Source: Inmirania thermothiophila (GTDB taxonomy: Bacteria > Pseudomonadota > Gammaproteobacteria > DSM-100275). From it: a stretch of DNA of 64,000 bases. The stretch is from the NCBI RefSeq assembly GCF_003751635.1, contig NZ_RJVI01000001.1:598726-662725 (forward strand), in the 5' to 3' direction. Positions within the stretch are counted from its first letter, which is position 1. The number at the start of each line of letters is the position of its first letter. The notes beneath the pieces are model-generated. The model had not been told where the DNA came from, ran no database searches, and saw only the letters and a program-made list of their open reading frames with translations. A program made the translations under genes and the position numbers. Of the stretch, positions 2,560 through 64,000 are shown piece by piece.

Positions 2560-4021
<1,462 letters not shown>

Positions 4022-57450: not shown

Positions 57451-57495
57451 GATCTGACAGGCGGCCGGCGGCGAGGGGCCGCGAGGGAGGTGGAC

Positions 57496-58116
57496 GTGGT
57501 GAGAAGAAGGGCTCAGGTGCTGGGGGTGCTGATCGCGCTGGTGCTGGCCGCCGGCTGCGCGGGGCCGCGCTACGGCGGCGAGGTGCCGGCGCCGTCGGCG
57601 GCGGCGCCCGACATCGACTACCTCATCGGTCCCGGCGACACCATCCAGATCTTCGTCTGGCGCAATCCGGAGGTCTCCACCTCCGTGCCGGTGCGCCCCG
57701 ACGGCAAGATCTCGGTGCCGCTGGTGGAGGACCTGCCGGTGGCGGGCAAGACCCCCACCCAGGTGGCGCGCGAGATCGAGCAGGTCCTCTCGCGCTACAT
57801 CCGCAATCCGGTGGTGACGGTCATCGTCAGCGGCTTCTCCGGCGTGTTCTCGCAGCAGGTCCGGGTCGTCGGCCAGGCCGCCCAGCCGCAGGCCATTCCC
57901 TACCGCAAGGGGATGACCCTGCTCGACGTCATGATCGCGGTGGGGGGGCTGACCGACTTCGCCGCCGGCGACAAGGCGAGCATCGTCCGCGTGGTGGACG
58001 GCAAGCAGACGCAGCTTCGCGTCCATCTCGACCGGCTGCTGCGCGACGGCGACGTGAGCGCCAACGTGCCGGTGCTGCCGGGCGACATCCTCATCATCCC
58101 GGAGGCGTGGTTCTGA
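57496..58116 (+). CDS. XrtA/PEP-CTERM system polysaccharide export protein (Wza-like)
   Basis: Outer-membrane lipoprotein, 206 residues. Lipobox LVLAAGC (Cys about 19). Polysaccharide export (Poly_export) domain IDYLIGPGDTIQIFVWRNPEVSTSVPVRPDGKISVPL, then one SLBB domain (VRVVGQAAQPQAIPYRKGMTLLDVMIAVGGLTDFA). It should form the outer-membrane exit pore. Start: GTG at 57496 gives the best spacing to GGGAGG; GTG at 57490 and 57499 are alternatives. Heads the EPS operon. Confidence 0.9.
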   Translation: MVRRRAQVLGVLIALVLAAGCAGPRYGGEVPAPSAAAPDIDYLIGPGDTIQIFVWRNPEVSTSVPVRPDGKISVPLVEDLPVAGKTPTQVAREIEQVLSRYIRNPVVTVIVSGFSGVFSQQVRVVGQAAQPQAIPYRKGMTLLDVMIAVGGLTDFAAGDKASIVRVVDGKQTQLRVHLDRLLRDGDVSANVPVLPGDILIIPEAWF

Positions 58117-58153: not shown

Positions 58154-59767
58154 ATGACCAACCCGATCCTCGAGGCCGTCTCGGAGCTTCGCTACTACAC
58201 CCGCGGGGTGTGGCGCCACCGCTGGGTGGCGCTGGCGGTGGCCTGGCTCGTGGCGGTGGCCGGCTGGCTCTACGTGCGGCAGATGCCGGACCGCTACGAG
58301 GCGAGCGCCCGTGTCTTCGTCGACACCCGCTCGATCCTGCGGCCGCTGCTTCGGGGGCTTGCCATCGAGCCCGACGTCAACCAGCGGGTGGCCATCGTCA
58401 CCCGCACCCTGCTCAGCCGCCCCAACCTGGAGAAGCTGGCGCGGATGACCGACCAGGACCTCAAGGCGGCGACGCCGGAGGCGATGGAGCAGCTCATCGA
58501 CCGCCTGCGCGACGAGATCCGCATCAGCGGCGGGCGCGAGAACCTCTACACCATCAGCTACGAGCACGAGGACCCGAAGGTGGCCAAGCGCACCGTCCAG
58601 TCCCTGCTCAACATCCTGGTGGAGAGCGCCCTCGGCGAGAGCCGCCGCGACACCGACACCGCGCAGCGCTTCCTCGACGAGCAGCTGCAGGAGTACGCCC
58701 GGCGCCTGGACGAGGCGCAGAAGGCCCTCACCGAATTCAAGCGGGCCAACGTCGCCCTCCTCGCGGTCTCGGGCGGCAGCTACTTCGCCCGCCTCGAGGA
58801 GGCGCGGGCGCAGCTCGAGCAGGCCAGGCTCGCCCTGCGCGAGGCGCAGTTCCGCCGCGACGAGCTCGCGCGCCAGCTCGCCGACGCCGAGTCGGGGGCG
58901 GCGGCCGAGGACGACCTCCTCGCCGCGGCGCCGGCGGCGGGCGGCGTCGCCACCGCCTACGACGGGCGCATCCAGGCCCTGCAGCAGCGCCTCGACGAGC
59001 TCCTGCTGAAATACACCGAGGAGCACCCGGACGTGCTCGCGGTGCGGGCGACGCTGCAGGAGCTGGAGAAGCGCCGCGAGGAGGAGCTTGCGGCGCGGGC
59101 GGCCGGCGGCGCGGGGGCGGGGCGCGGGTCGGACAGCGCCTTCGTGCAGCAGCTGCGCATCGCCCTCAGCGAGGCCGAGGCCAACGTCGCCGCCGCGCGG
59201 GTGCGGGTGCAGAGCTTCGAGGCGAAGGTGGAGGAGCTGCGCAAGGCCCTCGACACCATCCCCCGCGTCGAGGCCGAGCTCGCCCGCCTGACCCGCGACG
59301 TCGAGGTCAACAAGCAGAACTACGAGGCGCTGCTCAAGCGGCGCGAGACCGCGCGCCTGACCGAGGAGGCGGCCACCAGCAGCGACCAGGTGCGCTTCCG
59401 CATCATCGACCCGCCGCACGTGCCGCTCGAGCCCAGCGCCCCCAACCGGCTGCTGCTCAACGCCGCGGTCTTCCTCGCCGCGCTCGCGGCGGGGGCGGCG
59501 GCGGCGCTCCTGCTGGTCCTGCTGCGGCCGGTCTTCGACGAGGGGCGGATGCTGCGCAAGGTCACGGGCCGGCCCGTGCTGGGCAGCGTCGGGCTCGCCA
59601 TGACCCCCGGGCGGCGCTGGCGCACGGTGGCCGCCGCCCTGCCCTTCCTCATTCTTGGGCTCGGGCTTGCGGGGGCGCTGGCGGCGCTCGAGGCGCACGA
59701 GCTCGGGCGTATCGATCTCGGTCAGGTGCTGGCGGCCGTGGAGGCCGTGAGGGAGAGGCTGCTGTGA
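58154..59767 (+). CDS. XrtA system chain-length determinant protein (Wzz-type)
   Basis: Polysaccharide co-polymerase, 537 residues. TM1 about 25-43 (WVALAVAWLVAVAGWLYV), Wzz domain YEASARVFVDTRSILRPLLRGLAI, a long coiled coil about 175-400, and TM2 about 435-460 (LLLNAAVFLAALAAGAAAALLLVL). A further hydrophobic segment near 495-515 is typical of the XrtA-linked form. The kinase domain is separate (next gene, GTGA overlap). Confidence 0.9.
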   Translation: MTNPILEAVSELRYYTRGVWRHRWVALAVAWLVAVAGWLYVRQMPDRYEASARVFVDTRSILRPLLRGLAIEPDVNQRVAIVTRTLLSRPNLEKLARMTDQDLKAATPEAMEQLIDRLRDEIRISGGRENLYTISYEHEDPKVAKRTVQSLLNILVESALGESRRDTDTAQRFLDEQLQEYARRLDEAQKALTEFKRANVALLAVSGGSYFARLEEARAQLEQARLALREAQFRRDELARQLADAESGAAAEDDLLAAAPAAGGVATAYDGRIQALQQRLDELLLKYTEEHPDVLAVRATLQELEKRREEELAARAAGGAGAGRGSDSAFVQQLRIALSEAEANVAAARVRVQSFEAKVEELRKALDTIPRVEAELARLTRDVEVNKQNYEALLKRRETARLTEEAATSSDQVRFRIIDPPHVPLEPSAPNRLLLNAAVFLAALAAGAAAALLLVLLRPVFDEGRMLRKVTGRPVLGSVGLAMTPGRRWRTVAAALPFLILGLGLAGALAALEAHELGRIDLGQVLAAVEAVRERLL

Positions 59768-60638: not shown

Positions 60639-62174
60639 GTGGAGCGCGCGGTCCGTTCGCCCCGGGTGCGTCTCGGCCGCCGTCTGCTCGCGGGGGTGGC
60701 CGCCGCGCTCCTCCTCCCGGCGGCGGCGCAGGCGGCGCGGTGGACGGTGAGCCCCTCGGTGGGCGCCTCGCTGATCTGGAGCGACAACGTCGAGCTCGCA
60801 CCTCCGGGCGCGGAGGAGAGCGACCTCGTGGGCGAGCTCGCGCCGGGGATCGTGGCCGAGGCCGACGGGCGGCGGCTCGACCTGCGCCTGGCCTGGCAGG
60901 GGCGGGTGCGCGTCTCCAGCGAGGACAGCGACCGCAACGAGGTGATCCACCGCGCGGAGGCCCGCGCCGCGGCGGAGCTTGCGCCGCGGACCTTCTTCCT
61001 GGACGCCGAGGCGAGCGTGGACCAGGCCCTGGTGTCGGCGCGGGCGCGGGGCGGGGTGGACAGCATCTTCGACGGCAACCGCACCGACGTCGTCCGCTAC
61101 GCCCTCGCGCCCCGGCTCGAACGCGACTGGGGGCCGGTGGCGGGGCGGCTGGTGCTGCGCCACGAGGCCGCCGACTTCGAGCGCGGCGCCGCCGACACCC
61201 GCGCCGACACGGTGACCGCGCGCCTCGGCAGCGGCCGGCGCCCCTCGCCCCTGACCTGGTCGGTGGACTACCTCGACAGCAACCTGGACCGCGAGGGCGG
61301 TGACGACAGCGAGAGCCGGGTCCTCGAGGGCAACGCCGACTGGCGGGTCGGCCGCAGCCTGCACCTGCTCGCCCGCGCCGGCCGCGAGGACCACGAGCTC
61401 GCCACCTCGCGCAGCCTCGAGAACGGCACCTTCTGGAGCGCAGGCTTCGCCTGGACGCCGGGGCGGCGCTTCAGCCTGCGCGCGCTCGCCGGCGAGAACG
61501 ACCGCGAGGTCGCCCTGCGCATCGCCCCGACCCCGCGCACCAGCCTCGATCTCGCCTGGCGCGACCGGGACGTGGGGCTCAATCCCGCCGGCGCCTGGGA
61601 TGCGACCCTGACCCAGCGCAGCCGCCGGAGCACCCTGCGCCTGCACTACGGCGAGGAGGTGACCAGCGTCCAGCGCCTGGTCCTCGCCGGGCGGCAGGCC
61701 TTCGTGCTCGTGGACCCGGCCACCGGGGCGCCGGTCCTGGACCCGGTCACGGGGCTTCCGGTGGTGCTCTTCGCCGACGTCTTCTCCCTCGCCGACGGCG
61801 AGTTCCTGCGCGAGCGCGGGGATCTCTCCTGGGACCTGCGCGGGGCGCGCACCACCCTGCGGCTCGGCGCCTTCGGCGAGCGGCGCACCTTCGAGCTCGG
61901 GGGCGAGGTGGAGCGGGCGCGCGGGCTCACCGTCGCCGTCGAGCGGCGCCTCGGGGCGCGCACGCGGGGGGCGCTGCGGGCCTCGCGGGTGCGCAACGAG
62001 TTCGACGACGGCCGCGAGGACGACACCACCACGGGCGAGCTCTCCATCGGCCGCGAGAGCGCGCGCCGTCTCGGGGTCTCCGCGGCCTACCGCCACCAGC
62101 GCCGCGACTCCACCGAGGCGGGCGAGGACTACCGCGAGAACCGCGTGACCGTCACCGTGACGAGGCGCTTCTGA
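60639..62174 (+). CDS. XrtA/PEP-CTERM system outer-membrane beta-barrel protein
   Basis: 511 residues, GTG start. Signal peptide about 10-30, then many amphipathic strands with charged turns: WTVSPSVGASLIWSDNVELAPPGAEESDLVGELAPGIVAEADGRRLDL at the start and an aromatic C-terminus (VTVTVTRRF). Matches the exosortase-A-locus outer-membrane barrel family. Function unproven, probably a structural or export role in EPS. Lies between the kinase and the ATPase as in other XrtA loci. Confidence 0.85.
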   Translation: MERAVRSPRVRLGRRLLAGVAAALLLPAAAQAARWTVSPSVGASLIWSDNVELAPPGAEESDLVGELAPGIVAEADGRRLDLRLAWQGRVRVSSEDSDRNEVIHRAEARAAAELAPRTFFLDAEASVDQALVSARARGGVDSIFDGNRTDVVRYALAPRLERDWGPVAGRLVLRHEAADFERGAADTRADTVTARLGSGRRPSPLTWSVDYLDSNLDREGGDDSESRVLEGNADWRVGRSLHLLARAGREDHELATSRSLENGTFWSAGFAWTPGRRFSLRALAGENDREVALRIAPTPRTSLDLAWRDRDVGLNPAGAWDATLTQRSRRSTLRLHYGEEVTSVQRLVLAGRQAFVLVDPATGAPVLDPVTGLPVVLFADVFSLADGEFLRERGDLSWDLRGARTTLRLGAFGERRTFELGGEVERARGLTVAVERRLGARTRGALRASRVRNEFDDGREDDTTTGELSIGRESARRLGVSAAYRHQRRDSTEAGEDYRENRVTVTVTRRF

Positions 62175-62178
62175 GACC

Positions 62179-64000
62179 GTGTACCAGTCCTTCTACAGGC
62201 TCGAGTCGCTGCCCTTCGAGCTCACCCCCGACCCCGCGTTCTTCTTCATGAGCCGGGGTCACCGGCGGGCCATGGCCTATCTGCGCTACGGCCTGAGCAA
62301 GGAGGAGGGCTTTCTCGTCCTCACCGGCGAGATCGGGACCGGCAAGACCATGCTCGCCGCGGCGCTGCTGCGCGACCTCGCCCGGGAGGCGGTGATCGGG
62401 GCGCGGGTGGCCACCTCGCAGCTCGAGGCCTACGACATGCTGGAGATGGTGGCCGCCTCCTTCGGCCTCGAGCACGAGGGCAAGAGCAAGACGGCGCTCA
62501 TCAAGCGCATCGAGGCCTTCCTCGCCGACGGGGTGGCGCGCGGGCGGCGGGCGCTGCTGGTGGTGGACGAGGCGCAGAACATCGCCCGCGACGCCCTCGA
62601 GGAGCTGCGGCTGCTGTCCAACCTCGAGCTGGACGGCCGGCCGCTGCTGCAGATCTTCCTCTTCGGCCAGGACGAGTTCCGCCGGCTCCTGCGCGCCCCG
62701 CACATGGAGCAGCTGCGCCAGCGCGTGGTGGCGGCCTACCACCTCGGGCCGCTGCGCTCGGACGAGACCCGCGAGTACATCGAGCACCGCCTGCGGCGGG
62801 CGGGCTGGAAGGGCGACCCGGTCTTCACGGACGAGGCCTTCCACGTGATCCACCGCTTCAGCGGCGGGATCCCGCGCCGCATCAACACCCTCTGCGACCG
62901 CCTCCTGCTCTACGGCTACCTGGAGGAGCTGCACGAGATCAGCGCCGACGTGGTGGGGGTGGTGATCGAGGAGCTGCGCGAGGAGGCCTTCCTCGAGGCC
63001 GCGCCGTCGGCGGCCATGGAGGCGGCGCCCGCGGGCCCGCCAGGGCGGAGCCCCCGCCGCGGCGAGGCCGCGGGCCTGGAGGGCCGGGTCGAGGGCATGG
63101 AGGGGCGCATGGCCGGGATCGAGGAGCGCCTCGACGGGATCGAGGCGGGCGTCGGCGCGATCCGCGAGCGCATGGAGGCCCTGCTCGGCGCCGCCGGCCG
63201 GGCGGAGGCCGGCACGGGGCGGGGGCGGCCGGCCACCCGGCGGCACCCGCCCCGCGGCCGGGGCGTGCTCTGCGTCGTCGGGGCGCGGCCCAACTTCATG
63301 AAGATCGCGCCCGTGATGCGCGCCCTGCGCGAGGCGCCGGAGCCGGTGCGGGTGCGCCTGGTCCACACCGGGCAGCACTACGACGAGGCCATGAAGGACG
63401 CCTTCTTCCGCCAGCTCGGGCTGCCCGAGCCGGACGTGGACCTCGGCGTCGGCTCGGCCAGCCACGCGGTGCAGACGGCGCAGATCATGGAGCGCTTCGA
63501 GCCGGTGCTCGAGCGCGAGGACCCGGCCTGCGTGGTGGTGGTGGGCGACGTCAACTCCACCCTCGCCTGCGCCCTCGTCGCGGCCAAGGCCGGGCGCGCG
63601 GTGGCGCACGTGGAGGCGGGGCTGCGCAGCTTCGACCGCACCATGCCCGAGGAGGTCAACCGGGTCCTCACCGACCAGGTGGCGGATCTCCTCTTCTGCA
63701 CCGAGCCGCGGGCGGTGGAGAACCTGCGCGGCGAGGGCATCGAGGAGGGGCGCATCCACCTCGTGGGCAACGTCATGATCGACACCCTGCTGCGCCACCG
63801 CGAGCTGGCGGTGCCGCCGGCGCGCACCCTCGCCCGCCACGGGGTGGATCCGGCCGTGATCGAGGGCGCCGAGGGCTACATCCTGCTGACCCTGCACCGG
63901 CCGGCCAACGTGGACGACCCGGCGGTGCTGCGGCGGCTGATCAAGACCGTGCGCGGCATCAGCGACGCGGTTCCGGTGGTCTTCCCGGTGCATCCGCGCA
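62179..64000 (+). CDS. XrtA-associated AAA ATPase fused in frame to UDP-GlcNAc 2-epimerase, 3' end outside window
   Basis: One open frame of at least 607 codons. Residues 1-270 are the exosortase-A-locus ATPase: VYQSFYRLESLPFELTPDPAFFFMS, Walker A GEIGTGKT (about 51), Walker B LLVVDEAQN (about 128) and SGGIPRRINTLCDRLLLYGYLEE. A coiled coil follows (about 299-337) and a basic linker (RRHPPRGRG). From 63265 it is a non-hydrolysing UDP-N-acetylglucosamine 2-epimerase (WecB type): CVVGARPNFMKIAPVMRAL, HTGQHYDEAM, GDVNSTL, HVEAGLRS, EEVNR. Elsewhere these are adjacent separate genes. There is no stop codon and no good ribosome-binding sequence between the domains. The GTG at 63265 is the only plausible internal start. 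Confidence 0.85.
   Translation, partial: MYQSFYRLESLPFELTPDPAFFFMSRGHRRAMAYLRYGLSKEEGFLVLTGEIGTGKTMLAAALLRDLAREAVIGARVATSQLEAYDMLEMVAASFGLEHEGKSKTALIKRIEAFLADGVARGRRALLVVDEAQNIARDALEELRLLSNLELDGRPLLQIFLFGQDEFRRLLRAPHMEQLRQRVVAAYHLGPLRSDETREYIEHRLRRAGWKGDPVFTDEAFHVIHRFSGGIPRRINTLCDRLLLYGYLEELHEISADVVGVVIEELREEAFLEAAPSAAMEAAPAGPPGRSPRRGEAAGLEGRVEGMEGRMAGIEERLDGIEAGVGAIRERMEALLGAAGRAEAGTGRGRPATRRHPPRGRGVLCVVGARPNFMKIAPVMRALREAPEPVRVRLVHTGQHYDEAMKDAFFRQLGLPEPDVDLGVGSASHAVQTAQIMERFEPVLEREDPACVVVVGDVNSTLACALVAAKAGRAVAHVEAGLRSFDRTMPEEVNRVLTDQVADLLFCTEPRAVENLRGEGIEEGRIHLVGNVMIDTLLRHRELAVPPARTLARHGVDPAVIEGAEGYILLTLHRPANVDDPAVLRRLIKTVRGISDAVPVVFPVHPR

Follow-up and report, generated by a model that had tools for sequence, protein, structure and literature searches.

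Results

A single open reading frame encodes an ATPase and an epimerase of the exosortase A locus

We find that the ATPase associated with the exosortase A (XrtA) system and a non-hydrolysing UDP-HexNAc 2-epimerase are encoded in this genome by one open frame, which we read, with a probability of roughly 75%, as a real in-frame gene fusion whose two intact domains tether the neighbouring ATPase and epimerase activities of the XrtA locus. The frame lies on the plus strand and runs from a GTG at 62179 to a TGA at 64381-64383 (734 aa, 80.5 kDa); it contains no stop between 62179 and 64000 and continues past the edge of the window, by which we mean the whole 64,000-nucleotide stretch analysed here (contig C1, 598726-662725). 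The parts of the fused gene are as follows.

62179..62985, plus strand: XrtA/PEP-CTERM system-associated ATPase domain, residues 1-269 (TIGR03015, AAA_22; aligned with seven relatives)
62986..63075, plus strand: disordered Ala/Pro-rich linker, residues 270-299 (sequence; pLDDT <50 at 274-310)
63076..63204, plus strand: coiled-coil helix, residues 300-342 (heptad count; helix in the structure model, at low confidence)
63205..63264, plus strand: basic fusion linker EAGTGRGRPATRRHPPRGRG, residues 343-362 (sequence and alignment; pLDDT <50 at 337-358)
63265..64000 and on to the TGA at 64381-64383, plus strand: non-hydrolysing UDP-HexNAc 2-epimerase domain, residue 363 onward (TIGR00236/PF02350)

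At 75% GC open frames come cheaply, and the minus strand is likewise open across the fused frame, so the case for a fusion rests on two full domains in one frame and not on openness. Residues 1-269 match the NCBIfam model TIGR03015 over its positions 1-269 with 373.5 bits (curated cut-off 324.5), residues 363-721 match TIGR00236 over positions 3-358 of 366 with 311 bits (cut-off 210.15), and Pfam concurs on both halves with AAA_22 and Epimerase_2. A fused frame with two full domains is thus confirmed: the earlier note had read the ATPase, coiled coil, basic linker and epimerase as one continuous frame, and its reading of the codons across 63172-63300 agrees with ours.

The N-terminal half shares with other TIGR03015 ATPases the full-length match, the locus, the neighbours (a TIGR03016 gene upstream and a TIGR03006 deacetylase downstream) and the C-terminal coiled coil; it differs in that these ATPases are normally stand-alone proteins of roughly 330-400 aa, whereas here the chain runs on into the epimerase. 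By heptad count the a and d positions of the coiled coil LEGRVEGMEGRMAGIEERLDGIEAGVGAIRERMEALL are all hydrophobic, and a similar C-terminal helix closes the stand-alone ATPases of relatives. In the alignment the basic linker that follows lines up with what in relatives is the spacer between the two genes plus the leader of the epimerase.

We modelled the part of the fusion inside the window (607 aa, with the epimerase cut at the window edge) with AlphaFold2 from eight sequences, the rows for relatives being translated across their stop codons solely for the alignment. The model (mean pLDDT 72.8; ATPase domain mostly 72-95) has two folded domains joined by disorder, the helix at 300-342 and again disorder, with low confidence at 274-310 and 337-358. 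With the epimerase cut at the window edge, contacts between the domains are beyond what this model can judge.

In relatives the two genes adjoin as separate genes

Exosortase A loci had been described in the earlier note as normally carrying the ATPase and epimerase as consecutive separate genes, and this is what we see: the two adjoin in relatives and are unfused in all 60 tight pairs measured, a tight pair having its ATPase stop 6-185 nt upstream of the first strand of the epimerase. In 59 of these pairs an ATG, GTG or TTG for the epimerase stands 3-24 codons ahead of the strand. The exception is L065 (Methylomicrobium sp. RS1), in which AAGGAGG lies five bases before an in-frame ATT (3518-3560), which points to initiation at ATT or to an error in the sequence. 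At least 11 relatives (L012, L013, L041, L043 and L065-L071) have the two genes in the same frame with a single intervening stop, a share that is biased since in-frame relatives ranked high partly for being in frame; their spacer plus leader and the basic linker are of comparable length.

A recurrent fusion family is not what we observe, as the same architecture is absent from the other genomes searched and from every tight pair. There was no second uninterrupted ATPase-epimerase match in the 866 genomes that the tool counted, a figure that includes overlaps. The scan of named genomes took in the top 80 loci out of more than 587, and more distant fusions could be missed because part of the genome searches used strict E-value limits. 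The fusion is thus seen in one genome only, and the relatives searched include none of the same order. One candidate, a 759-aa frame length in G021, proved in the DNA to be two separate frames with stops between them. The literature searched contained no description of this ATPase-epimerase fusion. In a tree the fused epimerase groups with those of L011, L050, L051, L041 and L152, in a clade consisting mainly of epimerases from XrtA loci that are encoded next to the ATPase; it is about 60-69% identical to the closest such TIGR00236 (WecB) proteins, with the catalytic residues conserved. Unlike a stand-alone WecB, it is the C-terminal half of a longer chain and has no separate start codon at the usual position.

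Start and stop codons at the junction

From 62964 to 63300 the only stop in any of the frames is the TGA at 63299, in frame +1. ATG, GTG and TTG are absent from every frame between 63182 and 63264, and in the epimerase's own frame they are absent from codons -30 to -1. The junction around 63180-63270 is about 91% GC, so codon bias determines the frame of the linker poorly. Two candidate internal starts are nevertheless present outside these intervals.

63099..63111, plus strand: putative internal ribosome-binding site GGAGGGG (63099-63105) with ATG 63109, which would yield a 424-aa coiled-coil epimerase
63265..63267, plus strand: GTG at epimerase codon 0, the sole candidate start near the domain, with a weak Shine-Dalgarno (SD) energy (-2.2)

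These two codons leave room for a second, shorter product, and the best surviving alternative, though an unlikely one, is that the frame is fused while the cell makes both the full fusion and an internally initiated epimerase, with the coiled coil if it begins at ATG 63109 and without it if it begins at GTG 63265. GGAGGGG stands at good spacing before ATG 63109, and its anti-SD energy of -9.8 matches real starts of the locus: it equals that of the chain-length gene, is stronger than that of the fusion start at 62179 (-5.9) and is the strongest among 51 internal ATGs sampled. That background sample is small, however, and the Glu and Gly codons of the coiled coil explain the purine run as well. 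As for GTG 63265, initiation there would cost just the two residues that precede the same point in E. coli WecB, but its SD is weak.

Activity of the two halves and their possible coupling

Walker A (GEIGTGKT) and Walker B (LLVVDEAQN) motifs are both present in the ATPase domain, and Asp457, Glu479, Glu491 and His573 of the fusion align with Asp95, Glu117, Glu131 and His213 of E. coli WecB, which we take to be catalytic. The fused epimerase is also the sole TIGR00236 match in a genome that is 99.85% complete; a second epimerase elsewhere that would make the fused copy dispensable was sought with this model and not found. With catalytic residues and Walker motifs intact and no other TIGR00236 protein encoded, both halves are probably active. 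The genome does hold a second ATPase of the same broad type, 38% identical, in a 338-aa frame outside the locus (G000:C1:112282-113058, L002).

To our knowledge it has not been established what the XrtA-associated ATPase does, which lends interest to any partner that the fusion may name. The epimerase had been proposed in the earlier note to be membrane-associated; that proposal is not supported, for the fusion has no hydrophobic segment (the best 19-residue hydropathy, 1.9, lies inside the folded epimerase), and on this hydropathy measure we rejected membrane anchoring. Could the fusion instead be a functional coupling device, in which the ATPase domain gates or positions the epimerase? The ATP state or oligomerisation of the ATPase would then control the epimerase or bring it to the site at which the exosortase-linked sugar or the exopolysaccharide is made, and in other exosortase A loci the unfused ATPase and epimerase would be expected to form a complex as well. 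The adjacency of the two genes, conserved in many genomes, together with one fusion argues for this by Rosetta-stone logic. A single fusion of genes that lie one in-frame stop apart in relatives is weak evidence of that kind, though, and this fusion is without a membrane segment; we consider such coupling improbable, more so than a second product. Our results speak neither for nor against the control by ATP that the earlier note had put forward. What we draw from the fusion is a modest pointer to the XrtA ATPase and the epimerase working together: it marks the epimerase, encoded next to the ATPase in many exosortase A loci, as the ATPase's likely partner, and it joins the two in one chain in which their partnership could be examined.

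Origin of the fusion

Stop loss would account for the fusion, given relatives in which both genes are in frame with one stop between them, and such a loss in situ is the most economical origin that the sequence comparison suggests. In the ancestor the XrtA-locus ATPase and epimerase genes would have been directly adjacent and in the same frame; the intervening stop would then have been lost, the spacer becoming the short basic linker, and both domains, still intact, would now belong to a single protein of about 80 kDa. In this scheme the ATPase would retain its role in the XrtA/exopolysaccharide machinery while the epimerase would supply a 2-epimerised UDP-HexNAc(-type) precursor to the same cluster, and activities that were already neighbours would become co-expressed and tethered at a fixed 1:1 ratio, presumably co-localised, through the coiled coil and flexible linker.

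The lost stop codon that the earlier note had raised as a sequencing error is best kept as the likely origin and set aside as an artefact. That an error in sequencing or assembly deleted the stop or made a frameshift, the genes being truly separate as in all relatives, is very improbable: every other pair found is separate, one base change would turn a GAG codon of the junction into a stop, and one indel in the linker would let the ATPase end at the TGA at 63299, but the epimerase would then still be without a start in any frame across 63182-63264 (one error could remove a stop but not also a start), the other shifted frame is stop-free until 64242, and the assembly has five contigs with 0% contamination at the completeness given above. 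We conclude that the real in-frame gene fusion is a domain fusion of ordinary origin, absent from the other genomes searched and with no demonstrated new function.

The surrounding locus and the linking-sugar parallel

The genes upstream of the fusion within the window include the following.

57490..58113, plus strand: XrtA-system exopolysaccharide export protein (TIGR03027)
58154..59764, plus strand: XrtA-system chain-length determinant (TIGR03007)
60639..62171, plus strand: PEP-CTERM-associated outer membrane protein, directly upstream of the fusion (TIGR03016)

The stop of the last of these, at 62172-62174, lies 4 nt before the GTG of the fusion. Downstream, past the window, come the XrtA deacetylase, a FemAB-like protein, a glycosyltransferase, exosortase A, a second glycosyltransferase and an amidotransferase, and after the amidotransferase a glycosyltransferase without family assignment and a third one of XrtA type. 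The NCBIfam families around the fusion are TIGR03109 (XrtA), 03027, 03007, 03016, 03006, 03019, 03087, 03088 and 03108, and, save for the fusion, the locus is an ordinary one of the exosortase A type. Just downstream of it, two frames of 660 aa (L150:2594-4573) and 628 aa (L150:6601-8484) have no NCBIfam match at 1e-20 and may not be genes.

Taken together, the genes for the epimerase, the deacetylase, the FemAB-like protein and the amidotransferase are consistent with a pathway to a modified amino sugar, which may be the group to which the exosortase joins proteins. A parallel is offered by type IX secretion, where the Vim/Wbp proteins make the linking sugar and where VimA is related to the XrtA-locus FemAB family TIGR03019 and WbpS (PGN_1234) to TIGR03108 (PMC7468200). 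Relatives of VimA and WbpS thus stand beside the epimerase here, and by analogy the epimerase could take part in making a similar sugar, although the Wbp/Vim pathway belongs to a different phylum and a different sortase and is tied to exosortase A solely through homology.

The substrate of the epimerase

The best solved match to the fused domain, by sequence (2e-90) and by fold, is the UDP-GlcNAc(3NAc)A 2-epimerase of Thermus thermophilus (PDB 8sxv, 8sxw, 8sy9), so that its closest solved kin are of the WbpI type (UDP-2,3-diacetamido-2,3-dideoxyglucuronate 2-epimerase). UDP-ManNAc as the product is uncertain on these comparisons: the domain passes the TIGR00236 model for UDP-GlcNAc, yet the closest solved enzymes act on UDP-GlcNAc(3NAc)A. 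Unlike in the setting of the WbpI pathway, we saw no wbp gene set in the stretches read. The genome has TuaD-like and TviB/WbpA-like dehydrogenases away from the fusion locus, the latter on contig C3, and a wbp gene set beside the TviB/WbpA-like enzyme was likewise not recognised when six frames around it were tested against NCBIfam. This TviB/WbpA-like UDP-GlcNAc dehydrogenase lies near GalE and a 1151-aa protein that weakly resembles heparinase (L157, G000:C3:164000-183500), a region that is perhaps a second polysaccharide cluster.
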